Below, piece by piece: positions 17,429 to 45,465 of a stretch of 58,210 nt of DNA. Source of the DNA: a virus; the IMG/VR virus record IMGVR_UViG_3300007735_000763, positions 1 through 58,210 of that record. One strand, 5' to 3'. The notes under the pieces were generated by a model. That model did no database searches and was not told the origin of the DNA. It worked only from the letters and a program-made list of their open reading frames with translations. The translations under genes and the position numbers were made by a program. The number at the start of each line of letters is the position of its first letter. Position 1 is the stretch's first letter.

Positions 17429-18135
17429 CTAAAGTACTTAGCCATCTGGTCGCAGTCTTCGTCGTGGTAACACTCGACGCGCTTCAGCCATTCGTCTTTG
17501 TATCGGTCGAACTCCGAGCCCGTGGTGCTGAACTCCTGCGTGCCGCCTGATTGCAGCGCGATCAGCACGTAGCCGTGCTTGATCGAAGTGCCGTGCACGA
17601 TGTCGTGCGCGAGCGCGTAGGCAGCGAGCTGATGGAAATAATCCTGAATCCATTCGTGCTTTTTGGGCTTTAGGGACTGTTTGAAGTCGACAATGGCCGG
17701 ATTCCCACGGTAAACGCCTACCAAATCCGTCGTCCCGGCGTACTTACCAGGGTAGTGAAGCGCCACTTCGGACCCCCAGATCTCCCCGAGATTGACGAAA
17801 TACTCGTTCACCAGGCGATATCCCATCTCGTAGCCCTTGGTCATGAGCCAGTTGGTGGGTTTTGGTAGGTCACGGTACGCGATCATCCGCTCGATCACAT
17901 TGTGCATGTGCGTCCCAACGGTCGCCGCTTCGTTCTTGATCCGGTTTGCTTCCTCCTGCCCAACCCTCGCGGCCCACGCGTCAAGGGATTTCTTGTCCTT
18001 GGTCGCAGAGAGGATCGTGGTCACGCTAGGCAATGCAACGGCATTCCCATCCACGTATCGACGTCCGTCCGGGGTATCGACCCGTTCAAGCTTTTCGTAC
18101 TTGTAGAGCCGTTTGATCGGGATCAGATCAACCAT
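17425..18135 (-). CDS. PD-(D/E)XK exonuclease, RecB/MGME1-like
   Basis: 236 residues. Motifs in order: SVTTILSATK...LDAWAARVGQEEANRI (35-66), GTHMH (74-78), acidic E123 in SEVAL, D137 in AGTTD, D150-F-K152, and QLAAY (169-173). This is the layout of the RecB-type single-strand exonucleases including mitochondrial MGME1 and many phage nucleases. The active site is DFK rather than the common D/ExK. Start ATG follows GGAGGTG and overlaps the upstream helicase by 13 bases. Likely acts in recombination or replication end processing. Confidence 0.8.
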   Translation of the reverse strand: MVDLIPIKRLYKYEKLERVDTPDGRRYVDGNAVALPSVTTILSATKDKKSLDAWAARVGQEEANRIKNEAATVGTHMHNVIERMIAYRDLPKPTNWLMTKGYEMGYRLVNEYFVNLGEIWGSEVALHYPGKYAGTTDLVGVYRGNPAIVDFKQSLKPKKHEWIQDYFHQLAAYALAHDIVHGTSIKHGYVLIALQSGGTQEFSTTGSEFDRYKDEWLKRVECYHDEDCDQMAKYFS

Positions 18136-19574
18136 TTGCGCACCTCCTCGCCAAGCACCTGAGTCGAGATGTCGATCTTTTCCCTCAATGCCTTGACGAT
18201 CTTTTCATCCACTGTCTTGGGTGTAATCAGGTCAATGTACGTCACGTTCTTCCGCTGGCCGATACGGTGGGCCCGATCCTCCGACTGGAGCCGCTTCTCA
18301 AGGTCGAAGCTATTGCTGTAGTACACGACCACGTTCGCTGCGGTCAGGGTCAGGCCGTAGCCGCCAGTGCTGGGATTTCCCACGAAAAAGCGCAGTTTGC
18401 TATCGGGGTTTTGGAACTCCGCAACCACCCGCTGCCGCTCGTCATCGTCCGTATCGCCAAAGTACGTCCCGACGCTCTCCATACCGTACTCGGCCTGCAA
18501 GGCCTGCTTGATCATCAAGATGTCGTGCCGGTAGGTGGCCCAGATGATCATCTTGCCGTCGGTCTCTTCGACGATTGACATGAGCTCTGCAACACGATTA
18601 CTTGGTATAGGCAGCAACGCTCCACTATCAAGCTTGACGTGCCCGCATACGATTTGATGCAGGCGCATCAATTGCGTGAGGGCATTGACCGTGGACATCA
18701 GTCCCTGGTCGAACTGCGCAAGCGCAAGGGTCTTCATTTCGTTGTAGGCCTGCTTCTGCTGATCAGTCATGTCGACCTCTCGCTTGACGTAGAGCTTGTC
18801 AGGGAGATCTAAACATTCCTCTTTCTTGACGCGGAAGCTGAAGCGATCGAGCTTTTCTTTGAGCTCATCGAGCCTCTGGTAGCCGACGATCTGCTTGAAG
18901 CTATGGCTCGCAAGACGCCGCTCGATCGTCACCGCGTAGCGCGCCTGGAAACTGTAGTAGGACGGCGAGTCAAGACACGCGTCGGACAAGAACGCACACT
19001 GCTGATACAGGTCAAGCGGTGATTTCGTCACCGGGGAGCCTGTCATGATGCGGCGATACTTCGCCATTTTGCCTGTTTTTTCAGTGTTTTTGCTGCGTTT
19101 GCTGCCTGGCGTCTTGATTGTCGTCGACTCATCGATCGCCATCATTGCGTTATGTACGAACAGGAATCTTTGAGCGAACTTCGTGCCTCGCGGCGTCGAG
19201 AAGGCCTCTATGTTCATCACGAGGATCTTCAAGTCCTCGGTGATCTCGAACAACGAATCAAGGGCCTCCTGCTCCGCCTTGCGTGGCGTTGCGGCCCACA
19301 GCGCCATACGGTAGACCACGTGCTCGGGCATGTGTTTCGGGATCTCGGTGTCTACCCAGTTGCGGTACACGCCCTTCGGTGCCACGATCAGCGCCGCATT
19401 GATGCGGCCGAGGTCATACAACATGGCGATATTGTTGATCAACATGAAGCTCTTTCCAGTGCCCATGTCTGCGAACAATGCCGCAACCTGATGATCCCAA
19501 AAGCGTTGTAGGTACGCCGCCTGGTGCACAAACGGCTTGTTTTTGAATCGATACGTCTGTAAGAATTGGCTCAT
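18123..19574 (-). CDS. SNF2-family (SF2) DNA helicase/translocase
   Basis: 483 residues from the ATG at 19574, preceded by GAGAGGAAC; an in-frame ATG 30 bases upstream is less well placed. Walker A is MGTGKS (37-42), the DExx box is DEST (148-151), and the C-terminal RecA lobe ends with SEDRAHRIGQ (motif VI, to 440). Compact SNF2 proteins without extra domains occur in many phages and plausibly remodel protein-DNA complexes or forks. It forms a two-gene minus-strand operon with the exonuclease, divergent from the replication genes. Confidence 0.85.
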   Translation of the reverse strand: MSQFLQTYRFKNKPFVHQAAYLQRFWDHQVAALFADMGTGKSFMLINNIAMLYDLGRINAALIVAPKGVYRNWVDTEIPKHMPEHVVYRMALWAATPRKAEQEALDSLFEITEDLKILVMNIEAFSTPRGTKFAQRFLFVHNAMMAIDESTTIKTPGSKRSKNTEKTGKMAKYRRIMTGSPVTKSPLDLYQQCAFLSDACLDSPSYYSFQARYAVTIERRLASHSFKQIVGYQRLDELKEKLDRFSFRVKKEECLDLPDKLYVKREVDMTDQQKQAYNEMKTLALAQFDQGLMSTVNALTQLMRLHQIVCGHVKLDSGALLPIPSNRVAELMSIVEETDGKMIIWATYRHDILMIKQALQAEYGMESVGTYFGDTDDDERQRVVAEFQNPDSKLRFFVGNPSTGGYGLTLTAANVVVYYSNSFDLEKRLQSEDRAHRIGQRKNVTYIDLITPKTVDEKIVKALREKIDISTQVLGEEVRKWLI

Positions 19575-19598
19575 GTTCCTCTCGCTTTCTAACAGGGC

Positions 19599-19627
19599 TT
19601 GCAATCCCTGAAGCGCGAGTCTACACT
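19599..19627 (+). promoter_or_regulatory. Candidate sigma70-like promoter for the replication operon
   Basis: TTGCAA at 19599-19604, a 17-base spacer and TACACT at 19622-19627, each 4 of 6 to consensus, in the gap between the divergent helicase and the first + strand replication gene. A transcript would start near 19634, leaving a short leader with AAAGGAG before ATG 19653. Confidence 0.45.
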
Positions 19628-19652: not shown

Positions 19653-20003
19653 ATGTCAGTGCCTAAGGTGTATGTCGTTTCCGAGACGTTGCAGCACAAC
19701 ATTGCAAGTGCTCTCGATTACGGCCAGATTGAGACCATTCTGCCACCCAATGCACAGATTGCCTTTTCTGTGGCTCCGACCGTGCGTCGGGTCCAACGAA
19801 AGCTCGACAAGTTCACCGATGAGGACTTTCTGCTCCTGATCGGCGACCCGTCAGCAATAGGCATCTGCTGTGCAGTGGCAGCGTTTAAGAACAACGGTAG
19901 ATTTAAGTGCCTCAAGTGGGACAAGCGAGAACGCCGCTACATTCCCCTCGAGGTGGATCTTTTCAAGAAAGGAGAATTAGATGAGCCTTACGAGCTTATT
20001 TGA
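19653..20003 (+). CDS. 116-residue early protein of unknown function
   Basis: ATG at 19653 follows a strong AAAGGAG. The protein has a compact alpha/beta look with basic patches (RRVQRKLDKF, KWDKRERRYIP). The stretch FLLLIGDPSAIGICCAVAAF recurs, to my memory, in small phage proteins of unknown role placed beside replication genes. It overlaps the next gene by 23 bases. Confidence 0.6.
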   Translation: MSVPKVYVVSETLQHNIASALDYGQIETILPPNAQIAFSVAPTVRRVQRKLDKFTDEDFLLLIGDPSAIGICCAVAAFKNNGRFKCLKWDKRERRYIPLEVDLFKKGELDEPYELI

Positions 20004-20532
20004 AAAAGAAGCCGACGCTCTGCGCGTCAACGACGAGCAGATCACCGGTATCGCCGCCCTCGCGCGCCGTGCCAAGTCCCTCGAGAAAGAAATCGAGGAC
20101 CAGGAAACGGAACTCAAGGGCCTGAAAGACAAGTACCGCAAGCTGACCGAGGAGACGCTCCCGGAAGCACTTGCTGAGATGGGGATGTCCTCCTTCCGCA
20201 TGGAAGACGGCAGCTCCGTCAACATCAAGCCCTTCTATAGCGCCTCGATCAGCGAAGCACGTCGTGCCGAAGCCTTCCAATGGCTCAGGGACCACGGCTT
20301 TGACGACATCATCAAGAACACCGTCAGCGTCCGTTTCGGTCGCGGCGAGGCCGAGCTTTGCAACCGCCTTCTGGGGCTGCTCGGCAGTAGCGGATTCCGC
20401 TCTGAACAGGCGGAAAAGGTCGAGCCCTCTACTCTCAAGGCTTGGGTGAGGGAACGGGTGGAACGGGGCGAGGAGTTCCCAACAGAACTCTTCGGCGCGT
20501 ACATCGGGAAACGAGCCGAAATCAAATCTTAA
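19981..20532 (+). CDS. Coiled-coil replication-module protein
   Basis: 183 residues. A coiled coil (about 25-65, RAKSLEKEIEDQETELKGLK) precedes a mixed alpha/beta domain with EDGSSVNIKPFYSASIS and a C-terminal VEPSTLKAWVRERVE...PTELFGAYIG. Its ribosome site AAGGAG lies inside the previous gene. The position directly before the SSB-like gene suggests a role in replication or recombination. No enzymatic motif; family not identified. Confidence 0.6.
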   Translation: MSLTSLFEKEADALRVNDEQITGIAALARRAKSLEKEIEDQETELKGLKDKYRKLTEETLPEALAEMGMSSFRMEDGSSVNIKPFYSASISEARRAEAFQWLRDHGFDDIIKNTVSVRFGRGEAELCNRLLGLLGSSGFRSEQAEKVEPSTLKAWVRERVERGEEFPTELFGAYIGKRAEIKS

Positions 20533-20548: not shown

Positions 20549-21319
20549 ATGGCTAAAACAGCATTAGCAGAGAAGACCCAGGGCACCGCCCTGGCCATCG
20601 CCACCGCCTTCGAGGAGGATGCCAGCAGCAGCTTTGCCGGCATGAACCAGGACGACTTCGCCCTGCCGTTTCTGCGCCTCCTGACCAACACCTCCCCCGA
20701 GGTGGGCGAAGTAGAAGGTGCCCTGCCGGGCATGATCTACAACAGCGTCACGGGCCAGCTCTTCGACGGCAAGAAGGGCATCACCGTTGTGCCATGCGCT
20801 TACGTGCGCCAGTACATCGAGTGGGCACCGCGTGGTAGCGGATCGGGCGCTCCGATCCATATCTACCCCGCAACGTCTGACATCCTCTCCCGCACGCACC
20901 GCGAACCGGGCGAGAACAAGGACTATCTCGATAACGGCAACTACATCGAGAACACGGCCAACCACTACGTCATGGTGATCGACGCCGACGGCACGCCGTC
21001 GCCGGCACTGATCGTGATGAAGTCCACTCAGCTCAAGAAGAGCCGCAAGTGGAACAGCATGATGCAGTCGGTGAAGATCCAAGGCAGCAACGGCCTCTTC
21101 ACGCCGCCGATGTACAGCCAGTCCTACCGGCTGACCACGGTCCCCGAGTCGAACGACAAGGGCAAGTGGTTCGGTTGGGAAGTGGAGCGCATTGGCACAC
21201 TGGAGGACCAATCGGTCTATGCCACGTGCAAGGCGTTCGCGCAGTCGGTAAGCTCGGGTGCTGTCAAGGCAAAGCCCGAGACGGATGGTGAAGGATCTTC
21301 GGGTTCTGTGCCGTTCTGA
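20549..21319 (+). CDS. Probable single-stranded DNA-binding protein
   Basis: 256 residues. The body is beta-rich with aromatic residues (LPFLRLLTNTSPEV, PGMIYNSVTGQLFDGKKGITVVPCAYVRQYIEW), compatible with an OB fold, and the end is flexible and acidic (ETDGEGSSGSVPF), finishing in Pro-Phe like SSB interaction tails. It lies directly before the primase. The assignment rests on layout and the C-terminal tail, not on a clear family motif. Confidence 0.5.
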   Translation: MAKTALAEKTQGTALAIATAFEEDASSSFAGMNQDDFALPFLRLLTNTSPEVGEVEGALPGMIYNSVTGQLFDGKKGITVVPCAYVRQYIEWAPRGSGSGAPIHIYPATSDILSRTHREPGENKDYLDNGNYIENTANHYVMVIDADGTPSPALIVMKSTQLKKSRKWNSMMQSVKIQGSNGLFTPPMYSQSYRLTTVPESNDKGKWFGWEVERIGTLEDQSVYATCKAFAQSVSSGAVKAKPETDGEGSSGSVPF

Positions 21320-21399: not shown

Positions 21400-22932
21400 A
21401 TGACCGATATCACACGGTTCAAGGCGATCTTTTCGGGCTTGGATATCGCCTACGGGACCTACAAGATTGAAGGCGAGAAAGGCAACGGCAAGCAAGCCGG
21501 TAAAGCCGTCGTCGTACGCAAGCCGCCAACGGATGACCTTTGGCAAAAACACCTCGAGGGTGCAGAGCCGTCACTCGGCATCATCCCCATTCGTGCAGAC
21601 AACTCCTGCATCTGGGGCTGCATCGACATTGACCAGTACCCGCTCGATCACGCGGGACTCGTCCAAAAGATTCGCGGGCTAAACCTCCCGCTCGTCGTCT
21701 GCCGGAGCAAGTCCGGCGGCGCGCACGTATTTCTGTTCGTCAACGAACCCATGCCCGCAGGCGAGATGCAAAAATATCTCAAGGCCTGCGCAGGACTTTT
21801 GGGCGAGGCCGGTCGCGAGATCTTTCCAAAGCAAGCGGAGATCCTTGTCGAACGCGGCGACACGGGTAACTTCCTTAACCTCCCGTACTTTGGCGGCGAC
21901 GACACCATGCGTTACGCCTTCAAAGACGACGGTAAGGCGGCAACGCTCGAGGAGTTCTATGAACTCTACGACAAGTTCGTGCAGCCAAAGACCGTGGAAG
22001 TCCCAGAAGGGCCCAAGGCTCCCGAAGCACCGATCAAGGACGGGCCGCCGTGCTTACAGGCGATCTGTGCACAGGGCGTGCCTGAGGGCACGCGGAACAA
22101 CGCGTTATTCGCCATCGGAACGTATCTCAAGCGCGCGCACCCTGCGACCTGGGACAACGCCATCGTCGAGTACAACTACAAATACGTGAGTCCGCCGCTG
22201 CCGAACAATGAAGTGCAGCTTCTGATCAAGCAGCTCAATAAAAAGGACTACAAGTACAAGTGCAAGGACGCGCCGCTCAACTCCTTCTGCAACAGCGGCC
22301 TATGCAGGACTCGCAAATACGGGATCGGGGCTCACGGGCCAGATAGCCCGCAGCTCTCCGCGCTCTCCAAGTACGCGAGCGAACCGCCCTTGTGGTTCCT
22401 GGACGTAAACGGCAAGCGCATCGAGCTTGATACAGAAAGCCTCTTCAACCAGATCGCCTTCCAAAAGGCGTGCGTCGAGAAGCTGAACGTGCTTCCCCCT
22501 GCCGTGCGTAAGCAGGACTGGGAGCAGATGCTGAATGGGCTGCTCACAGAGATGGTCGAGAGCGAACAGATCACGGTCGCGAGTGAAGATACAACCGTCA
22601 CGGGCCAGTTCAATGATCTTCTCGAGGAGTTCTGCACGCACTTGCAGCAGGCGATGGATCGGGACGAGATCCTACTCGGCCGCCCGTGGACGAATGACGA
22701 TGAGGGCAAAACATACTTCCGCATGAAGGATCTGAATGCCCATCTCGTGCGCAACAACTTCAAGGCGTTGACCTCGCCAAAGATGGCGCAGCGCGTCCGA
22801 GACATTGGCGGTGAGCCGATCAGCCTCTTTATCAAGAACCGAGCCGTGCGCTGCTGGCGCATCCCGCGCTTTGAGCGGCAGGACTCGCCCTTTGATACGC
22901 CGGAACAAAAGAAAGGTAGGAGCCCATTCTAA
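21400..22932 (+). CDS. Archaeo-eukaryotic-type primase (AEP)
   Basis: 510 residues. The N-terminal domain carries the AEP signature: CIDIDQYP with D76 and D78 as metal ligands, then SKSGGAHVFL with H109, and further on ERGDTGNFLNLPYF. The middle has a PriCT-like helical region (ICAQGVPEGTRNNALFAIGTYLKR) and a small Cys cluster (CNSGLC). It resembles primases of the TOTE-associated group found in phages. It would make primers for the family A polymerase encoded 2 kb downstream. The C-terminus ends RSPF, like the SVPF tail of the SSB candidate. Confidence 0.8.
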   Translation: MTDITRFKAIFSGLDIAYGTYKIEGEKGNGKQAGKAVVVRKPPTDDLWQKHLEGAEPSLGIIPIRADNSCIWGCIDIDQYPLDHAGLVQKIRGLNLPLVVCRSKSGGAHVFLFVNEPMPAGEMQKYLKACAGLLGEAGREIFPKQAEILVERGDTGNFLNLPYFGGDDTMRYAFKDDGKAATLEEFYELYDKFVQPKTVEVPEGPKAPEAPIKDGPPCLQAICAQGVPEGTRNNALFAIGTYLKRAHPATWDNAIVEYNYKYVSPPLPNNEVQLLIKQLNKKDYKYKCKDAPLNSFCNSGLCRTRKYGIGAHGPDSPQLSALSKYASEPPLWFLDVNGKRIELDTESLFNQIAFQKACVEKLNVLPPAVRKQDWEQMLNGLLTEMVESEQITVASEDTTVTGQFNDLLEEFCTHLQQAMDRDEILLGRPWTNDDEGKTYFRMKDLNAHLVRNNFKALTSPKMAQRVRDIGGEPISLFIKNRAVRCWRIPRFERQDSPFDTPEQKKGRSPF

Positions 22933-23210: not shown

Positions 23211-23379
23211 GAACTACCACAAGTCCGTCTTTGTCGTGCTGCATATCGCCCTCGACGGTGTTTCCGTCGTTGGCGTGTATGATGATTATCGCGACGCTGA
23301 TGACAAGCGACAGGAAGAACCCGAGAAGTTCACTGTCACGATCGCCCCGTACTACCCAGCCCCGATGACCGAGCCATGA
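23203..23379 (+). CDS. 58-residue early protein
   Basis: Begins at GTG 23203, six bases after GGAGG, overlaps the upstream gene by 8 bases and the next ATG by 4 (ATGA). It reads as a short beta hairpin (KSVFVVLHIALDGVSVVGVYDDY) and an acidic middle. The dense overlaps support it being translated. No family recognised. Confidence 0.55.
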   Translation: MIKNYHKSVFVVLHIALDGVSVVGVYDDYRDADDKRQEEPEKFTVTIAPYYPAPMTEP

Positions 23380-24875
23380 GCGTCGAGAAGGTCTTCGGTC
23401 CCCCTGGCGCAGGCAAGACGACCTACCTGCTCTCCGTGGTAGAGCGGGAGCTTGCTGCGGACGTCCACGCGACACAGATCGGCTACTTCGCGTTTACCCG
23501 CAAAGCCGCGACCGAAGCCCGTGACCGGGCGATACAGAAGTTCCCGTCACTAAACCCGGACCTCGATTTCCCCTGGTTCCGCACGCTGCACTCACTCGCC
23601 TACCGCTGCCTCGGTATTGGTACGAAGGACATGATGACGCCGCAGCACTACGCAGAGTTCGCTAAAGAGGCGGGGATTGAGCTCGCCGCTGAACAGGGTG
23701 AGGAGGAGTTTGCCGTCAAGGTCGACCATCCGATTCTCAACGAGATCAACATCGCGCGGATCAAGGGCAAGGACCTGCGACAGCATTACAACGAAAGCCG
23801 CATGGCGATCGAGTGGCATCATTTCGAGTACGTTGACCGAGCCTACCGACATTACAAAGCCTCCCACGGCCTTCTTGACTTCACCGACCTCCTCGAGCGA
23901 GTGGTCGACGAACCTGAACGCTTACCGCGACTGAAATCGCTCATCATCGACGAAGCCCAGGATCTTTCCAAGCTCCAGTGGCGACTCGTCTGTGAGCTCA
24001 TCGAACGCGCAGAGAAGACCTACATCGCAGGCGACGATGACCAGGCGGTCTACACCTGGGCCGGTGCTGACGTTGATAGCTTTCTCACGCTCGAGGGCGA
24101 CATCCGCATCCTCGATCAGTCCTACCGCGTCCCCTCCAAGATCCACGCCCTCGCTGATCGCATCGTGCATCGCATCCGCAAGCGCCAACCCAAGATCTGG
24201 AAGCCGCGCACCGAAGGCGGCGTGATCACTTACTACAACGATTTCCACCACGTGAATCTCACCCAGGGCGAGTGGCTCGTGCTTGCCGCGACCAACTACA
24301 TGCTCACGGAGATGCACGAGTGGATCAAATCCCAGGGCCTACTCTTCGAGCGCCACGGACAACGGAGCATCCCCGAGTCCGTGCTCACCGCCGTCGTCGG
24401 CTGGGAGCGACTGCGCAAGGGCCAGGAGATCCCCTTCGAGATGGTTAAGGTGATCTATAAATACCTTGATACGAAATTCGTTAAACACGGGCACAAAGGG
24501 CTCAAGACGGCGGATGTACACACAATGTACACACACGCCCTGCTTGCCGAGAAACATGGGCTTTTGACCGATGCCATCTGGCACGAGGCCCTCGCCAAGA
24601 TCGGCGAGGACAAGCGCAACTACCTCATCGCCCTCCTGCGTCGCGGCGTGAAGCTCACGGGCAAAGTGCCGATCAAGCTCTCCACGATCCACGGCGCCAA
24701 AGGCGGCGAGGCCGACAATGTTTTATTGATCAGCGACCTTTCGACGAAGTTCGCCAAGGAGTACGAAGTCAACCCAGACGACATCAACCGCCTGCTTTAC
24801 GTCGGGATTACCCGCGCTAAGCAGACGCTGCACGTGATTCTCCCCCGAAATAGTCAAAAAGGTTTCCGACTGTGA
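23376..24875 (+). CDS. UvrD/Rep-family SF1A helicase
   Basis: 499 residues. Walker A GPPGAGKTT (8-16); FAFTRKAA (Ia-like); DEAQD (192-196, motif II); GDDDQAVYTWAGA (motif III); QSYRVP (motif IV); STIHGAKGGEADNV (motif V); LLYVGITRAKQTLHV (motif VI). All motifs of a 3'-5' SF1A helicase are present in a shortened form (UvrD is about 720 residues). With no DnaB-like gene in the window, it is the best candidate for the replicative helicase alongside the SNF2 protein. Confidence 0.9.
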   Translation: MSVEKVFGPPGAGKTTYLLSVVERELAADVHATQIGYFAFTRKAATEARDRAIQKFPSLNPDLDFPWFRTLHSLAYRCLGIGTKDMMTPQHYAEFAKEAGIELAAEQGEEEFAVKVDHPILNEINIARIKGKDLRQHYNESRMAIEWHHFEYVDRAYRHYKASHGLLDFTDLLERVVDEPERLPRLKSLIIDEAQDLSKLQWRLVCELIERAEKTYIAGDDDQAVYTWAGADVDSFLTLEGDIRILDQSYRVPSKIHALADRIVHRIRKRQPKIWKPRTEGGVITYYNDFHHVNLTQGEWLVLAATNYMLTEMHEWIKSQGLLFERHGQRSIPESVLTAVVGWERLRKGQEIPFEMVKVIYKYLDTKFVKHGHKGLKTADVHTMYTHALLAEKHGLLTDAIWHEALAKIGEDKRNYLIALLRRGVKLTGKVPIKLSTIHGAKGGEADNVLLISDLSTKFAKEYEVNPDDINRLLYVGITRAKQTLHVILPRNSQKGFRL

Positions 24876-26740
24876 GCACCGTCCCTATGTTCCCCCGCAG
24901 CGCCGAATGGGTGCCGCCCGTCAGTTTTCCAGATCTTTCCGCCGCAACAGAGATTGCGATCGACCTTGAAACATGTGACCCCCACATGGAGTCGATGGGG
25001 CCAGGATGGCCCCGGAAGGACGGCTACATCGTCGGCTACGCGGTCGCGGTAGACGGCTGGAAAGGCTACTTCCCAATCGCCCACCAGGGCGGCGGCAACC
25101 TCGATGAGCGCATCGTCAATCGTTGGATGAAGAAGATCCTCGAGCTGCCGTGCGACAAGATCATGCACAACGCCGCCTACGATCTCGGCTGGCTTCGCGC
25201 ATCAGGCTTCACGGTCAACGGCACCGTCTACGACACCATGCTCGCCGCGCCGCTGATCGATGAGAACCGCTACAGCTACGCGCTCAACTCACTCGGCTTT
25301 GATTACCTCAAAGAGGTCAAGTCCGAACAGGGCCTCAAGGACGCGGCCTCTGACTTCGGCGTGCACGCCAAGAAAGAACTCTGGAAACTCCCCGCCATGT
25401 ACGTCGGAGACTACGCCGAACAGGACGCGGCGCTCACGCTCAAGCTCTGGCATCACCTAAAGACCCTGATCCGCAAGGAAGAAGTGGAGTCCATCTTCGC
25501 GCTCGAGACCGAGCTCCTGCCGATCCTCATCGATCTCACCTACCAGGGCATCCGCTTCGATCGCGCCAAGTGCGAGCAGTTGATTGATGAGTTCAAACAG
25601 AAAGAGATCGAGCACATCAAGCAGATCAAATCCCTCTCGGGCGAGAAGGTCGACATTTGGGCTGCGGCAAGCATCGCCAAGGCGTTCGACAAGCTCTCGC
25701 TGCCGTATCCCAAGACCACGACAGGGCTCCCGAGCTTTACGAAGACCTTTCTCGATTCTCACGATCACCCGATCGCCAAGCTCATCGTCGAAGCAAGAGA
25801 ATTTAATAAGACTCATGGTACCTTTCTCGAGCCCTACCTACGCCACAGCGCCAAGGACGGGCGTATCCACCCGCACATTAACCAGATGCGTTCCGAGGAC
25901 GGGGGCACCGTCACCGGCCGCCTCTCCATGAACAACCCCAACCTCCAACAGGTCCCCGCTCGCCATGAAATCATCGGTCCCCTGGTACGCTCGCTTTTCC
26001 TGCCTGAAGAAGGCCAACTCTGGGCCGCCAACGATTTCAGCTCACAGGAGCCTCGGCTTCTCGTCCATTACGCGGCCCTACTCGCTCTACCAGGAGCGGA
26101 GCGCATGGCGGACGCATACCGCAACGATCCAAACACCGACTTCCACCAAATGGTGGCAGATATGGCGGGGATCAAACGCAAAGCCGCCAAGACCATCGGA
26201 CTCGGATTGATGTATGGGATGGGTAAGCAGAAGCTTGCCAACTCCCTTGATCTCCCGCTCGATGAAGCCTCTGAACTCATCACGGCCTTCCACGCCAACG
26301 TCCCCTTCCTCCGGGGCACGATCGACTCTGTGATGCGCCGCATCGAACACCCCGCCTCGGGCGGCTCGATTAGAACGCTTCTAGGTCGCAAGTGCCGCTT
26401 CCCGCTCTGGGAACCCGTCGAGTACGGCATCAACAAGGCCCTGCCTCGAGAGCAGGCCGTCATTGAATACGGACCACGGATCAAGCGCGCGATGACCTAC
26501 AAGGGCCTCAACAGACTCATTCAAGGCTCCGCCGCCGACCAGACCAAGGCCGCGATGGTCGCGCTGCATAAGGCGGGACACCGCCTCCTCCTGCAAGTGC
26601 ACGACGAAATCGCCATCAGTGTCGATGGGAAAGAGATCGCGGACCAAGCATCAAGGATCATGCAAGAGGCAGTTTCCTTGGAAGTGCCCTCGCGCGTGGA
26701 TGTCGAGATTGGCCCCTCCTGGGGCGAAGCAAGAGGTTAG
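24872..26740 (+). CDS. Family A DNA polymerase with 3'-5' exonuclease
   Basis: 622 residues from a GTG overlapping the helicase stop. Proofreading motifs: DLETCD (D31, E33), MHNAAYDLGWL, YAEQDAALTL. Polymerase motif A DFSSQEPRLL (D388), motif B KRKAAKTIGLGLMYG, motif C QVHDE (D578, E579). No 5' nuclease domain. At the position matching E. coli Phe762 the residue is Leu444. It completes the replication operon with the primase and helicase. Confidence 0.92.
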   Translation: MSTVPMFPRSAEWVPPVSFPDLSAATEIAIDLETCDPHMESMGPGWPRKDGYIVGYAVAVDGWKGYFPIAHQGGGNLDERIVNRWMKKILELPCDKIMHNAAYDLGWLRASGFTVNGTVYDTMLAAPLIDENRYSYALNSLGFDYLKEVKSEQGLKDAASDFGVHAKKELWKLPAMYVGDYAEQDAALTLKLWHHLKTLIRKEEVESIFALETELLPILIDLTYQGIRFDRAKCEQLIDEFKQKEIEHIKQIKSLSGEKVDIWAAASIAKAFDKLSLPYPKTTTGLPSFTKTFLDSHDHPIAKLIVEAREFNKTHGTFLEPYLRHSAKDGRIHPHINQMRSEDGGTVTGRLSMNNPNLQQVPARHEIIGPLVRSLFLPEEGQLWAANDFSSQEPRLLVHYAALLALPGAERMADAYRNDPNTDFHQMVADMAGIKRKAAKTIGLGLMYGMGKQKLANSLDLPLDEASELITAFHANVPFLRGTIDSVMRRIEHPASGGSIRTLLGRKCRFPLWEPVEYGINKALPREQAVIEYGPRIKRAMTYKGLNRLIQGSAADQTKAAMVALHKAGHRLLLQVHDEIAISVDGKEIADQASRIMQEAVSLEVPSRVDVEIGPSWGEARG

Positions 26741-27715: not shown

Positions 27716-27963
27716 CTCTTGATAATGTCTTCCAATGGTCCCAGGAGGCCGGAGTGGCTTCGGGATCCGAGCCCGTGAATATCACCGCACTCCAACGCTT
27801 CGCCGCCCTCGTTGCCGCTGCCGAGCGGGAGGCGTGTGCGAAGGTGTGTGAGGAAACACTAACGCATCACTACATAAAGAAAATGGCCGACAAAGACCAC
27901 CCGATGCTTCTTGCGGCGTGTGCCGACTGCGCCGCCGCCATCCGTGCGCGAGGTGAGGTATGA
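27712..27963 (+). CDS. Small early protein, paralogue of 28396-28698
   Basis: 83 residues. It shares RFAALVAAAEREACAKVCEE and a terminal CAAAIRARGE with the gene two places downstream, so the two probably arose by duplication. Helical, with several Cys (ACADCAAAIRA) that might bind metal. This family is frequent in aquatic phages, function unknown. ATGA overlaps on both sides. Confidence 0.6.
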   Translation: MTLDNVFQWSQEAGVASGSEPVNITALQRFAALVAAAEREACAKVCEETLTHHYIKKMADKDHPMLLAACADCAAAIRARGEV

Positions 27964-28298
27964 CCAAAGTAGACATTGCAGACCGCGTTCGTATCCGAGC
28001 GATGAAGGCTTGCACTAGTGGTGACATGGAACTGTTTAACCTACTAGTGGAAGTGCTTAATCGGTTTGAATCGACTAACCGTTTCTATGGCACACCTTTA
28101 ACAGCACTTGGCTTGACCGTGCGTACGCATAACATTTTGGAACGAGACGGCGTGTACAGCGTCGAACAGTTGAAGGAGGTATCAAAAATAGATCTTTTGA
28201 GGATGCCGAGAATGGGCAAGAAAGGTTTACGCGAAGTTGAAGATGCCTTGCAGTGTTGGAACAACGCAAACCAATCTGAACAGGAGCAACCGCGATGA
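27960..28298 (+). CDS. RNA polymerase alpha C-terminal-domain-like protein
   Basis: 112 residues. Residues 45-100 follow the alpha-CTD of bacterial RpoA: TPLTALGLTVRTHNIL, then DGVYSVEQLKEVSKIDLLRMPRMGKKGLREVEDAL. The DNA-contact positions equal to E. coli Arg265, Asn268, Gly296 and Lys298 are kept (R55, N58, G86, K88); Ser299 is Gly89. The N-terminal 40 residues are helical and unlike RpoA. It may bind UP-element DNA, sigma or activators to redirect host transcription. A plain helix-hairpin-helix protein is the alternative. Confidence 0.7.
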   Translation: MTKVDIADRVRIRAMKACTSGDMELFNLLVEVLNRFESTNRFYGTPLTALGLTVRTHNILERDGVYSVEQLKEVSKIDLLRMPRMGKKGLREVEDALQCWNNANQSEQEQPR

Positions 28299-31422: not shown

Positions 31423-31478
31423 GCTTGCGTGGCCTCTCCCTAGGAATCGCTAGTACCTCTACGATCACGTGCCACGGA

Positions 31479-31510
31479 CCCCACCGGTGATGAGCCGGTG
31501 GGGTTTTTTA
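31479..31510 (+). terminator. Rho-independent terminator closing the early operon
   Basis: CCCCACCGG (31479-31487), a 7-base loop, CCGGTGGGG (31495-31503), then TTTTTTA. A perfect 9-bp GC-rich stem with a U tract, about 57 bases after the last early gene. Confidence 0.9.
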
Positions 31511-31596
31511 TTGCGGTGGGGAGGCGGCGGGGATGGGGGTGGAGGGGTCGAGGACCATGGATCAAGGGCCAAAGTGACCGCATCGTGGCCAAAAGG

Positions 31597-31831
31597 GGCG
31601 TTTTGGGCGGTCTATATAGATCTTTTTAGGGTCTAATGATTTTTTTATGAAAATTTTAAAATTTGGTGTATTAGACGTAATAGGAGTAATAAGTTAATAG
31701 AAACAATAAGTTATGTACTGTACAGTACCATTACAGTACTTCAGTAGTGAAATTGATATAAAAATCGCGCGAGAACTTTTTTTTTGAAAAAAAAAAAACA
31801 TTAGACCCTAAAAAAGTCTATATAAAACGCC
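31597..31831. repeat. Long inverted repeat around an AT-rich core (origin candidate)
   Basis: Left arm 31597-31638 and right arm 31799-31831 are inverted copies. They share 16 identical bases, TTTTTAGGGTCTAATG (31623-31638) against its complement (31799-31814), then a near-identical TATATAGA-containing part and GGCGTTTT, with a 9-base insertion in the left arm. The 160-base core is very AT-rich, ends in a long A tract and holds short direct repeats (ATAAGTTA twice, TACAGTAC twice). No ORF is supported here. It looks like a replication origin or similar control site. Confidence 0.6.
31715..31728. repeat. 14-bp perfect palindrome in the AT-rich core
   Basis: GTACTGTACAGTAC is self-complementary; TACAGTAC is repeated at 31732-31739. 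It is a likely protein-binding site (initiator or repressor) inside the putative origin. Confidence 0.55.
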
Positions 31832-31843
31832 AAAAACGACTCC

Positions 31844-31879
31844 TTGGCAGGAGTAGTTGCCCTGTTGTAGAGTGGCAGC
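31844..31879 (+). promoter_or_regulatory. Promoter for a leaderless transcript at 31880
   Basis: TTGGCA (31844-31849), 18-base spacer, TAGAGT (31868-31873), then six bases to ATG 31880. With the usual 6-8 base distance the transcript begins at the start codon. There is no ribosome site. GGCA/TGCC half-sites at 31846, 31858 and 31874 overlap both hexamers and could be operator elements. Confidence 0.65.
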
Positions 31880-32095
31880 ATGTTGCACGTTGAATCCACC
31901 GTCCCCCTGCCAGACGACCGTCCCCGGTTGAAGTACCCCTTTGACGATATGCAGGTGGGGGATAGCTTCCTGATTACCGAGGCAGGCATGGTCAAGAACG
32001 CCCGTTCGGCGGCCTGGATGTACTCCAAGCGTCATGGGATGAAATTCTCCTGTCGGAAGGTGGACGGCGGCTGGCGCGTCTGGAGGACGGCGTGA
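31880..32095 (+). CDS. Small conserved phage protein (VGDSF...RVWR family)
   Basis: 71 residues: YPFDDMQVGDSFLITEAGM, a short helix with SAAWMYSKRHGMKFSCRKV, and GGWRVWRTA at the end. This compact alpha/beta pattern recurs in many phages and plasmid-like elements, possibly DUF7303 (from memory). It starts the packaging operon just after the putative origin, from a promoter that would make a leaderless mRNA, and overlaps the small terminase gene by 4 bases. Confidence 0.65.
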   Translation: MLHVESTVPLPDDRPRLKYPFDDMQVGDSFLITEAGMVKNARSAAWMYSKRHGMKFSCRKVDGGWRVWRTA

Positions 32096-32787
32096 GCGGC
32101 AAGAAGGAAGACGCCTTCATGGCCAAGGTCGGCCGTGGGATTCCCAAGACGACCCTCGACAAGATCAACCAGCCCGTCCCAGCAAGGAGCGGGAACGGCA
32201 CTAAGTCCAAGAGGCGTGACCAACCGTTGACGACGCAAGAGTGGAAGTTCGTCAACGAGTTCGTCGCTGGGGACGGCCATGTCACCGCCAAGGAGGCAGC
32301 CCTGCGGGCGGGCTACCCTGAGAAGAAGATCAAGTACTACGCCGAAACGCTGACCAACCCAGACATGAATCCGCATATCGTGGCGGAGATCCAGAAGCTG
32401 CGGGCGGAGTTCGCCGAAAAGTACGGCACAACCTACGAGCGGCACATGAGGGACTTGCAGCTCATCCGCGACCAGGCCCTGGCTGCGGGAGCCTACGGCG
32501 CCGCCGTCCAGGCTGAGTACCGTCGAGGGCAGGCCCTGGGAACGATCTACATCGACCGCAAGGAGATCCGCCACGGCACGATCGACTCCATGAGCAAGGA
32601 GGAGGTCATGCGCAAGCTCGAGGAGATTAAGAAACTGTACGGTGCGGGAGGCGGCCCGATCATTGACATAACACCGCGACAGGTCGAGGAAAGCCTGACG
32701 GAGGAAAAAGATGCCAGCGAAGCCCGAGACGAACCTGTACAACAGGCTGAAGGACAACCTATCAGGCTGCCTTATTACCCGGATTGA
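32092..32787 (+). CDS. terS: Terminase small subunit
   Basis: 231 residues from a GTG overlapping the preceding stop. Residues about 46-95 match the Terminase_2 helix-turn-helix: LTTQEWKFVNEFVAGDG, AKEAALRAGYPEKKIKYYA, LTNPDMNPHIVAEIQKL. A helical oligomerization region and an acidic tail follow. It would recognise packaging sites on phage DNA and feed the large subunit, which is unusually far away here (5.6 kb, beyond an accessory cassette). The 3' end overlaps the nuclease gene by 77 bases. Confidence 0.85.
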   Translation: MSGKKEDAFMAKVGRGIPKTTLDKINQPVPARSGNGTKSKRRDQPLTTQEWKFVNEFVAGDGHVTAKEAALRAGYPEKKIKYYAETLTNPDMNPHIVAEIQKLRAEFAEKYGTTYERHMRDLQLIRDQALAAGAYGAAVQAEYRRGQALGTIYIDRKEIRHGTIDSMSKEEVMRKLEEIKKLYGAGGGPIIDITPRQVEESLTEEKDASEARDEPVQQAEGQPIRLPYYPD

Positions 32788-35070: not shown

Positions 35071-36522
35071 ATGTCGAATATTTTCGAGTTGCCATTCCTG
35101 GCGAGATCGGTAGCTGATTTGCAGCGCGCGGATCGTCTCGCGAATCGGATCGTCGATTGTCTCGCGTCTCTCCAGGATGCGGACGACGATCGCGGTTATC
35201 TCCAGGCCGTTCGATTCTTTGGTCGTATGGTTCGAGCGTCGCTCGATCCCGAGCGCAGCGAGACCTCGCGCCCTTCCGACCTGGCGTTCGTCCAGGACGT
35301 GCTCGAGCGCGCGACCACTCGCGGGTTTTATGCTCCTGCGTTCGCCTACTCGTTTTCGCGAAAGTTGGCATTGGGCCAGGTTGTACGTCGGGTAAACGTC
35401 CAGGATCTAGTCGAGAGTCATTTCGAGAGTGCCGAGGGATCGGATCGGAACGCGATCATCGAGTTATGCGGCGAGCACCACTCGATCATGTTCTGCAATC
35501 ATTGCGACGAGCTGTTCGCCGACCAGGATCTTCAGCGGCGATACGGCGGCGGGTGGGTCTGCTCGAGCTGCCGTGAGGACGTCTTCCAATTCTCCGAGCG
35601 TTATGACGCCTGGGTGCATGATGACTGTGTTCGGGCGGCGCTCGATGAGGACGGAGATCGATGCATCATCGACGAGGACGATTCCGAGTTTCATTTCGAC
35701 GAGGAGCTCGACCAGTATGTGCATGATGATTACGAGCCGCCCTCGAGGTCAGTAATTCGGAACTACCATTCCTCGAAGCCGTTCTTTTCTGTCCGTCGCG
35801 ATACCTGGGTCGAGCAGCATCGGCGCGCCCTGGGAGTGGAGCTCGAGGTCGAGGGGTACTCCATCGATCCCGTCATCGCTGCGCGCGCGATCCACGATCA
35901 CGTCAACGGCGGCGAGTTCGGTCGTAATCTGTTCTTCGAGCGCGACGGCAGTTTGTCCAACGGGTTCGAGTTGATCTCGCAGCCTATGAGCGTGCCGGCG
36001 TTGCGCGAGACGTTCCAGTTCTTGCGTCAGCCTTCCCTGGTTCGAGGTCTCCGCAGTCATCGCACGACGACGTGCGGCCTCCATGTTCACGTCACCAGGG
36101 CGGGGCTCTCGAACCTCACGATCGCCAGGGCGGTGACGTTCGTAAACGATTCGGGGAATGATGCCTTCATCCAGGCATTGGCTCGACGTTACAACACGGG
36201 TTTCTGCAACATCCGAGATAAGGAGCTCGAGACCGCTCACCTGCCAGGGGATCGATACGAGGCGATCAATCTCACGGGGAGCGAGACGATCGAGTTCCGA
36301 ATCTTTCGCGGTTCGCTCAAGTATGAGGCCGTGATTGCTGCGATCGAGTTTTGTCATGCCCTGCTTGACTACTGCGCGCGACCGGAGACGGCGGCGGGGG
36401 GCTTGAATGCTCAAGCGTTTATTCGTTGGTGCGCGAACCATTTGGCCGACGAGACGGCGATCCTGCGGTCGTATGTGAACGATCGCATGGCAGGCCTGTT
36501 CCAACATTCTGAAGCGGCCTAA
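35071..36522 (+). CDS. Amidoligase (COOH-NH2 ligase) with zinc-finger insert
   Basis: 483 residues. The C-terminal half is an amidoligase of the glutamine-synthetase-like fold: GVELEVEG (255-262), FFERDGSLSNGFELIS, GLHVHVT (336-342) and INLTGSETIEFRIFRG (399-414) supply the acidic and His residues for ATP-Mg. The N-terminal half is helical, then has a zinc-binding segment (C142xxC145, C164xxC167, H183 and C186) and acidic patches. It would form an amide or isopeptide bond on an unknown carboxylate. The amidotransferase 21 bases downstream is the likely ammonia source. Confidence 0.8.
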   Translation: MSNIFELPFLARSVADLQRADRLANRIVDCLASLQDADDDRGYLQAVRFFGRMVRASLDPERSETSRPSDLAFVQDVLERATTRGFYAPAFAYSFSRKLALGQVVRRVNVQDLVESHFESAEGSDRNAIIELCGEHHSIMFCNHCDELFADQDLQRRYGGGWVCSSCREDVFQFSERYDAWVHDDCVRAALDEDGDRCIIDEDDSEFHFDEELDQYVHDDYEPPSRSVIRNYHSSKPFFSVRRDTWVEQHRRALGVELEVEGYSIDPVIAARAIHDHVNGGEFGRNLFFERDGSLSNGFELISQPMSVPALRETFQFLRQPSLVRGLRSHRTTTCGLHVHVTRAGLSNLTIARAVTFVNDSGNDAFIQALARRYNTGFCNIRDKELETAHLPGDRYEAINLTGSETIEFRIFRGSLKYEAVIAAIEFCHALLDYCARPETAAGGLNAQAFIRWCANHLADETAILRSYVNDRMAGLFQHSEAA

Positions 36523-36543
36523 CAGGGCCAGGGAGTTCTGACT

Positions 36544-37506
36544 ATGTGTCTATTAGTTCATCAGCCCTCGAGCACGTCATTCTCGAATGATTTTCTCGCG
36601 GATGTTTACTCGAGCAATCGCGACGGCATCGGCGCGATGTATGCCCTGGGCGGTCAGCTGCACGTCGTCAAGGCGTTGCCGAAGAATGCCGACGAGTTCA
36701 TCGAGTTCTATCGGCAGCACGTCGAGGGGCGCGAGTCGATCTGGCACGCGCGGATGCAGACTCACGGCGACATCGATCTCGAGAATTGTCATCCGTACCA
36801 GGTGACGGCTCGAGTTGCCCTGGCTCATAACGGGATTCTGTCGACGGGTAACTCCTGGGACAAGGCGCGCTCGGACACTTGGCATTTCATCCGAAATATT
36901 GTTCGACCAGCTGTCGCGAGCGACGAGGCGATCGTGCTCGATCCTTCCTGGCAGTCGTTCCTGGGCGACCTGATTGGCGCCTCGAATAAGTTCGGCATGA
37001 TGACGGCCGACGGCCAGGCGGTGATCATCAATCGCTCGAGCGGCGTCCAATACTCGGGCGCCTGGTTGTCGAACACTTACGCCTGGAGCGCGCACAAGTT
37101 CGGCGTCGGATCGGTTGCGACCAGGTACACGGGCGCGCGCATCTGGTCGGGTTATGACTGGGATGATTACGCGCTCGAGCCTGTGATCGCGAAAGGCTCG
37201 AAGTCGTCCAGGGGCTCGAAGTCCCTGGGCGGGGATTCCCTGGCGAGGATCACCAGGGCGGCGCGCAATTCCTACATTCGCGGGACGTTGGCTCAATGGG
37301 TCGAGGACGCACCAGGGAAGGCGGCGATCCTGGTCAATGCCATCGAGGACGATCCGACGGGCGAATGCGGCGAGCTCGCCTGGGACGACCCAGAGCTCGT
37401 CGTCGATGCCCTGGCTAAATGGTTCGAGCTCGAGGGGTTAGAGCCTGGGCATGCGGCGAGTCGTGTCGAGGATGATCCCTGGGCGCGCTACGGGTTCCAG
37501 GACTAG
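36544..37506 (+). CDS. Class II glutamine amidotransferase (Ntn hydrolase)
   Basis: 320 residues. The nucleophile is Cys2, exposed after Met removal. NRDGIG (25-30), HARMQTHGD (68-76) and LAHNGIL (93-99) complete the glutaminase site with Arg70, His74, Asn96 and Gly97. About 150 further residues include a basic/Ser-rich linker (KGSKSSRGSKSLGG). No synthase domain is attached, so ammonia must go to a partner, most simply the amidoligase of the same operon. Terminator directly downstream. Confidence 0.85.
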   Translation: MCLLVHQPSSTSFSNDFLADVYSSNRDGIGAMYALGGQLHVVKALPKNADEFIEFYRQHVEGRESIWHARMQTHGDIDLENCHPYQVTARVALAHNGILSTGNSWDKARSDTWHFIRNIVRPAVASDEAIVLDPSWQSFLGDLIGASNKFGMMTADGQAVIINRSSGVQYSGAWLSNTYAWSAHKFGVGSVATRYTGARIWSGYDWDDYALEPVIAKGSKSSRGSKSLGGDSLARITRAARNSYIRGTLAQWVEDAPGKAAILVNAIEDDPTGECGELAWDDPELVVDALAKWFELEGLEPGHAASRVEDDPWARYGFQD

Positions 37507-44511: not shown

Positions 44512-45465
44512 ATGGCCGCCTCTCGAGAAGATCTTCGCAAGCTGATCTTGGCCATGAACCCCGATGCGCAAAACATCGAGGAAGCCGCAGCAGCCGCGCC
44601 CCGCGTGCCTAAGATGGCCAAGGCGTTTGGGCGAGGGTTCTACGAGGCCAACGTCGCCCCATTACTGTCTCCATACGAGACGGCGACGGCGATCTTTGGC
44701 ACAGGCAAAGAGATGGCCCGTGCGCCGGTAGAGACGACCAAGAGCATGGCGCGATCGGAGCTTGAGCGATTGCAGCAAGCCGAGCGCAGTCCAGAGGCTG
44801 CCGCCGAGTATGCGGGCGGAATGTTCAGTCCGTTTAGCATGCTCCGTCGTGCGCCAACCATGCGTGAGATCACCGCCTATCAGGGCTCGCCGGCGAAGTT
44901 TGAGCCGACCCCAGACAACCCGCTTGGCGAGTTTGACATCACCAAAGCGGGCAGTGGCGTGGGCCAGCAAAACAGAGGCCCCGGCACCTACATCGCTGAG
45001 AACCCAAAGGTTGCAAACCGATATCGTATTGCCCCCGGCAGCACAGATCCCAAGAAGGGATTTATGTACACGGTCGATCTGCCTGATCCGATGATTGAGA
45101 AGATGATTGACCTTGATGCGCCGATCATGAATCAGCCAAAGATCCGTGAGACGCTTTTGAAGATCGCGGACGACGACGTGCTGCCGCCAGAGAGCGCACA
45201 GTATCTGCGATACATGCTGACGAGCCAGGACAAAGCATTGCAAAAGTACCCGCTTACGGGTCTCGGTTTGGTTTCTGTGCCGCGTGAGTTTGGCGGCATC
45301 TTCAAAGACGTTACCGAAGCCAATGCGGTTCTTCAGCGTTATGGCATTCCAGGCTCGAAGTGGAAGGACGACATCTCGCGTGGCCCGGACAAAGGCACGC
45401 GTAACTTCGTGGTATTCCCTGGGGAAGAGAAAAAGGTCAAGATCCTGAAGCGCGAAGGCAGGTAG
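44512..45465 (+). CDS. Virion protein, shared N-domain plus ART-like C-domain
   Basis: 317 residues. The N-terminal 120 residues copy the preceding protein's start. The rest begins ITAYQGSPAKFE, FDITKAGSGVGQQNRGPGTYIAENPKVANRYRI, then GFMYTVDLPD: the arrangement of ADP-ribosyltransferase-like domains attached to phage polyvalent proteins (YxGSP...G-x-G...Y). The usual R-S-E triad cannot be assigned with certainty. If active it could be an injected host-modifying enzyme. Confidence 0.5.
   Translation: MAASREDLRKLILAMNPDAQNIEEAAAAAPRVPKMAKAFGRGFYEANVAPLLSPYETATAIFGTGKEMARAPVETTKSMARSELERLQQAERSPEAAAEYAGGMFSPFSMLRRAPTMREITAYQGSPAKFEPTPDNPLGEFDITKAGSGVGQQNRGPGTYIAENPKVANRYRIAPGSTDPKKGFMYTVDLPDPMIEKMIDLDAPIMNQPKIRETLLKIADDDVLPPESAQYLRYMLTSQDKALQKYPLTGLGLVSVPREFGGIFKDVTEANAVLQRYGIPGSKWKDDISRGPDKGTRNFVVFPGEEKKVKILKREGR

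Follow-up and report, generated by a model that had tools for sequence, protein, structure and literature searches.

The stretch of DNA analysed here (the window) is a 58,210-base IMG/VR virus record. Among named phages it is most closely related to DSL-LC04, whose portal protein is 75% identical, and then to the HTVC023P-type phages. The replication genes of the window form a module around an AEP-TOTE primase (Table 1), in which a DnaB-type helicase is absent and no initiator was recognised. The early operon ends in an intrinsic terminator, and between this terminator and the terminase small subunit gene (terS) lies an element of approximately 250 bp, at the junction of early and packaging genes where the first-pass annotation had placed it. 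The lowest-GC 120-nt stretch of the surrounding loci falls inside this element, with a GC content of 24% in the window. A sigma-70-like promoter for the late operon is suggested by a weak match beyond the element; 0.7 such matches are expected by chance in the scanned region. The 71-aa ORF that precedes terS is conserved, and accompanies terS also in L120, a locus described below. Two other regions of the window were observed in passing. The product of 27960-28298 (+) matches the C-terminal domain of the RNA polymerase alpha subunit (PF03118, E 1e-10); it was not found in the relatives compared and could alter host transcription. At 35071-37506 (+), between two terminase genes, an amidoligase-like gene (PF12224) adjoins a weakly class-II glutamine amidotransferase-like gene (PF13230).

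Table 1. Features of the window that bear on the element, in order of position
Feature	Position	Strand	Remarks
SNF2-type helicase, replication module	18123..19604	-	
Pam3 gp33-like protein (DUF7307)	19981..20532	+	
Pam3 gp34-like protein	20549..21319	+	
AEP-TOTE primase	21400..22932	+	
UvrD-type helicase	23376..24875	+	
Family A DNA polymerase	24872..26740	+	
Intrinsic terminator of early operon	31476..31506	+	13-pair stem, 8 G-C, T tail
GGACCA-type short repeats, 5' of left arm	31552..31571	+	Family consensus GGACCACGGACCACGGGTCA; conserved alignment columns
Left dyad arm	31597..31638	+	Extended 31592-31646; pairing kept in relatives
First iteron, degenerate, GGTGTATTA	31665..31673	+	Most relatives GACGTAAT; alignment, offsets
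Iteron GACGTAATA	31674..31682	+	
Iteron GGAGTAATA	31683..31691	+	Offsets
IHF-like site AAACAATAAGTTA	31701..31713	+	One mismatch to WATCAANNNNTTR
14-bp palindrome	31715..31728	.	Not conserved as such
Inverted iteron	31730..31734	-	ATTAC on + strand
Last iteron, degenerate, GTGAAATT	31747..31754	+	Most relatives GGTGTAATT; alignment, offsets
CGCGCG motif	31766..31771	.	
T/A tracts, inner side of right arm	31777..31798	.	
Right dyad arm	31799..31831	-	Extended 31791-31845
Sigma-70-like late-operon promoter, TTGGCA ... TAGAGT/TGTAGA	31844..31873	+	Weak match; spacing similar in relatives
71-aa ORF between element and terS	31880..32095	+	Weak DUF7303 match
Terminase small subunit, Terminase_2-like	32092..32787	+	

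The first-pass annotation had described a long inverted repeat here, with arms of 42 and 33 nt that share an identical 16-nt block (TTTTTAGGGTCTAATG) and differ by a single 9-nt insertion. The arms were indeed inverted copies, with both pairs of coordinates exact; the block and the insertion were confirmed, and two mismatches were observed besides. The A tracts, the AT-rich interior and the palindrome of 14 bp (GTACTGTACAGTAC) that it had listed were all present, and a direct repeat of 17 bp was found. Using an ungapped repeat finder, the arms could be extended at both ends (Table 1), with 84% complementarity and a spacer of 144 nt. Their local-alignment score of 34.2 lies far outside the distribution obtained from 2000 dinucleotide shuffles (mean 8.4, sd 1.3, maximum 16.2), and across the 58 kb the repeat is the top scorer of such geometry (33.5, against 13.7 for the runner-up). 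As single-stranded DNA the element is predicted to fold with -44.3 kcal/mol (z = -8.2), which was equalled by none of 200 shuffles.

Searching with the terminase small subunit returned 80 IMG/VR loci. The element was present 5' of terS in all 72 loci that reach at least 480 bases upstream, as judged by alignment to 38 non-redundant representatives. It is carried by DSL-LC04 too, and by three metagenome-assembled-genome contigs from an independent collection, binned as Rhodoferax, Burkholderiales and Verrucomicrobiota. With a search pattern built from the iterons and the IHF-like site, terS was found to start 217-472 bp away in 66 of the 66 family matches that have terS downstream. Analogues in HTVC023P and HTVC027P scored weakly and were recognised by eye. 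The matches in L225-L228 and several others resemble chance matches in coding sequence, and chance matching is possible for L134 and L166 as well. L120, a related phage, has the element in inverted orientation at a distance of 2.8 kb from the terS block; the GGACCA-type repeat travels with it there, and is seen also in HTVC023P. Next to the inverted element of L120 (3400-3920, -) are a gene for a RusA-like resolvase and a run of tandem repeats of the ATGCCCTTTGGT type. A second, inverted iteron core was observed in L061 (70-114, -), at the contig end and about 3.4 kb from the main element.

Alignment of the relatives revealed that the palindrome is not kept, and that what is kept are GTAAT repeats arranged on a common plan: three direct iterons, an IHF-like site, one inverted iteron, one further direct iteron and, in 35 of the 38 representatives, a CGCGCG motif. 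Offsets within the core are near-constant among these representatives, at 14, 23 and 31 for the first three iterons (+) in most of them, 46 for the IHF-like site, near 73 for the inverted iteron and near 93 for the last direct one. The IHF consensus WATCAANNNNTTR occurs exactly in 20 of the 38 cores, and in 35 when a single mismatch is allowed, as compared to 0.4% exact occurrence in shuffled cores. The copy in the window is slightly degenerate, in its first and last iterons and at one position of the IHF-like site. Iteron-type origins are expected to have at least three regularly spaced direct repeats next to DNA that unwinds easily; the window has two good and one degenerate direct iteron at regular spacing, and AT-rich DNA that is likely to unwind adjoins them. 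An IHF-like site between repeated sites would also suit an attP with IHF and arm-type sites. Neither a tyrosine integrase nor a serine recombinase was found in the window record, which may be incomplete, and we rejected this reading, to which we would give almost no weight.

The arm sequences diverge strongly between phages, and within one phage the two arms tend to correspond to each other. Over the 38 representatives, pairing of arms with their own partners exceeded cross-phage pairing to an extent that 0 of 20,000 permutations reached, and the same held for the 16 representatives with dissimilar arms (0 of 100,000). Some representatives have arms that score no better than cross-pairs, and in one, G002 (L040), no arm pair was observed among its top repeats. 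It had been proposed that arms absent from close relatives would speak against an origin; relatives keep the pairing and not the arm sequence, and the argument does not apply as it was worded. Complementarity of the arms could also persist through template-switch correction, without selection. The strong predicted fold and the covarying arms would also suit a structured non-coding RNA. G-T and A-C mispairs are about equally common in the arms (55 and 49), so that wobble pairing of the kind seen in RNA is not apparent on either strand, and there is no G-U excess. No match was obtained in Rfam, and the element is probably little transcribed since it is flanked by a terminator and a promoter. With neither an Rfam match nor a wobble bias, a structured RNA was rejected as very improbable.

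Comparison of closely related contigs revealed that the element is exchanged as a unit. The L021 contig matches those of L024 and L028 at 96-97% nucleotide identity over most of the shared length (more than 26 kb), a stretch that takes in the terminase and the replication genes. The exception is a block of about 0.6-0.75 kb, which contains the element and an opposite-strand HNH-type ORF (in L021 the HNH match is below Pfam's cut-off). Among aligned elements, 74 of the 199 pairs with terminase genes at least 93% identical have elements that are less than 75% identical; in pairs with swapped elements the 140 bases directly downstream have a median identity of 96%. Since cassettes swap in near-identical genomes, different arms and two iteron layouts evidently function with one and the same set of proteins. 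A subtype test of TerS against the replication genes revealed this swap but did not discriminate between the two, because L021 and L024 share both gene sets almost identically. At least 21 loci (L024, L006, L035, L042, L065, L071 and L079 among them) have small HNH_3-type ORFs of several different kinds a short way upstream of the element, all on the minus strand and about 505-1080 bases 5' of terS; in the window no HNH ORF lies beside the element. Homing or exclusion by these HNH proteins might plausibly drive the exchange.

Inverted repeats around AT-rich DNA, in versions that are swapped between genomes, might also be taken for a MITE with terminal inverted repeats; a small mobile element of non-autonomous type was the alternative offered by the first-pass annotation. 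This alternative fails: the window genome holds a single copy, the site is fixed across the family with no empty site seen, and the exchange is an allelic replacement. In addition, the arms vary while the interior is conserved, and are thus not a conserved terminal sequence. We consider a mobile element scarcely credible. On these sequence comparisons the arms form a dyad at the level of DNA, and are not the ends of a transposon or part of an RNA.

The nearly constant place of the element in the window's own family, 217-472 bp 5' of terS, like that of a packaging site, is a point against an origin, as are the flanking terminator and promoter. It could instead be a packaging initiation site (pac/cosB-like), where the iterons would be bound by TerS and the DNA bent by IHF as in lambda cosB, with cleavage by the large subunit close by. 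The cosB of lambda, which precedes the gene for the small terminase subunit, is built of repeated protein-binding sites grouped around an IHF site, and the iterons and IHF-like site described here resemble that plan; to our knowledge, cosB is without a long dyad. In L134, a phage with a distant terminase, GTAAT repeats occur together with an IHF-like site directly 5' of terS, although this may be a chance match like several of the terS-less ones in coding sequence. No obvious pile-up of contig ends was seen by eye at the element in the 80 loci. The element travels with terS in the main family and is separated from it in L120, where it is inverted, in 023Pt_psg01 and in the siphophages considered below; in 023Pt_psg01 and HTVC027P terS points the opposite way.

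These siphophages (K21lambda1, PMBT28, Kokobel2 and JeffCo) have an AEP-TOTE primase related to that of the window, and head and tail genes that are unrelated. K21 and the window have in common the AEP-TOTE primase, the SNF2 and UvrD helicases, PolA and the Pam3 gp33- and gp34-like proteins. K21lambda1, PMBT28 and Kokobel2 each carry, at two intergenic places, iteron clusters of three direct and two inverted copies, with one further direct iteron in K21 and PMBT28; one of the two clusters lies immediately upstream of the AEP primase, and this primase-side copy is about 25 kb from terS. In the Klebsiella phage K21lambda1 (L232) the TGGAACGG clusters are at 22028-22126 and 45042-45271, about half a genome apart; PMBT28 likewise has two TGGAACGG clusters, those of Kokobel2 are of GGTTCCA, and in JeffCo the repeats are GGTAAC and the arrangement is weaker. 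The two strongest inverted repeats genome-wide coincide with or adjoin the iteron elements in K21, Kokobel2 and JeffCo; the iterons themselves contribute to these repeats in K21, and in Kokobel2 and JeffCo the arms consist of sequence distinct from the iterons. The siphophage elements thus resemble that of the window in having direct iterons (three, or two in JeffCo) followed by inverted ones, within or beside inverted repeats, in intergenic DNA at operon starts and together with the same replication module. They differ in iteron sequence (TGGAACGG, TGGAACC or GGTAAC) and in being present twice per genome, and no IHF-like site or CGCGCG plan was noted in them.

023Pt_psg01 shares the replication genes and has its terS inverted; an element of similar kind, with TGGCACA iterons and CGCGCG, has kept its place there where the early operon ends. 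CRP-901 shares the structural genes (portal-type) and has different replication genes, and no element lies 5' of its terS. Taken with the siphophages and L120, this co-occurrence favours replication over packaging, and we regard a packaging site as unlikely. The association with the primase is not universal. ct3Et533 and R5C have the primase, with no such element visible (R5C was scanned in part), and a crude scan for iteron clusters in 80 diverse AEP-primase loci gave no enrichment, 9 of 80 falling below -7 as compared to 8 of 80 controls. L236-L238 have iteron clusters just upstream of the primase; in L252, L264, L278 and L306 intergenic clusters that look alike by eye are found further upstream. 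As regards packaging in siphophages, the Acinetobacter phage Loki uses headful packaging and has permuted ends (PMC5313236).

With a terminator of the early operon on one side and a promoter-like site on the other, the element might also control transcription of the late operon, with the iterons as operators for a phage regulator and the AT-rich DNA as an upstream activating sequence. The elements of K21, PMBT28 and Kokobel2 also precede sigma-70-like promoters at operon starts, as judged by eye. However, operators have no need of long complementary arms that are free in sequence, the iterons are about 90-180 bp away from the promoter-like site, and the 140 nt downstream remain 96% identical when the element itself has been swapped. 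Transcription control seems to us unlikely, slightly more so than a packaging site.

Cumulative GC skew had been proposed as a check for an origin. In six of seven genomes a local skew minimum was observed no more than about 430 bp away from the element (at -236, -269, +311, -289, -289 and -427 bases relative to its centre), with none near in the seventh. The switch coincides with the boundary of early and late operons as well, and the signal does not reach beyond the early operon, since skew at third codon positions is back to about zero further left. In 023Pt_psg01 the element is at a skew maximum instead of a minimum, and the siphophages have no skew signal at their elements. The check was thus borne out in part: because of the operon boundary, the reversal in 023Pt_psg01 and the absence in siphophages, the skew lends weak support, and we did not accept it as proof of an origin.

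We propose that the element is a putative iteron-type origin of phage replication. This reading, which agrees with that of the first-pass annotation, appears to be the best single explanation, with a probability of roughly 0.55. Conserved iterons, an IHF-like site, AT-rich DNA, a dyad and the similar elements of phages that share only the replication genes speak for it; protein binding, melting and initiation at the element are what we infer. In the mechanism that we envisage, a phage protein belonging to the AEP-primase replication module would bind the five GTAAT iterons, of which the fourth is inverted, and a host IHF-like protein would bend the DNA at the site between them. This bend could help the flanking T/A tracts to melt. 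The long arms might then form a cruciform or single-strand hairpins, which would hold the bubble open or mark the place for loading of helicase and primase, and replication would begin beside the boundary of early and late genes.

In the literature searched, we found no account of the element, nor of an origin in phages with an AEP-TOTE primase, UvrD and PolA. The origins of pSC101, R6K and lambda have spaced iterons with AT-rich DNA adjoining, and an IHF site in several cases. Unlike these, the present element was found without a known Rep or O-type initiator, and its iterons are enclosed by arms of 33-42 nt that are variable in sequence and keep their complementarity. It also differs from lambda cosB in that similar elements occur beside primase genes far from terminase. 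The closest experimental analogue is the putative origin of SCCmec, where inverted repeats and 5-nt iterons are bound by a helicase and a primase-polymerase pair carries out priming (PMC7581432). The resemblance lies in intergenic inverted repeats and short iterons, which in the pattern-2 version of SCCmec go with a primase-polymerase and an initiator helicase (eLife 2020, PMC7581432). In SCCmec the Cch2 helicase binds the iterons, whereas no Cch2-like initiator was identified for the window element; moreover, the repeats of the window family lie inside a long dyad, together with an IHF-like site, and are exchanged as a whole cassette.

A more specific and tentative idea, which we hold to be possible and no better than that, is that of an interchangeable origin cassette. 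One set of replication and packaging proteins would serve all its versions, the arms being recognised by shape (their complementarity) instead of sequence, and near-identical phages would exchange the versions, perhaps through HNH endonucleases that are encoded next to the element and cut rival versions. The phages with an AEP-TOTE, UvrD and PolA module include HTVC023P-type pelagiphages and isolated siphophages. A precise 250-bp origin candidate, a motif plan and related isolates make the proposal testable. If true, a DNA dyad that keeps its pairing through sequence turnover, and is swapped between genomes 96-97% identical, would be unusual, and this combination of turnover and exchange would point to strong selection on an origin or a nuclease target.
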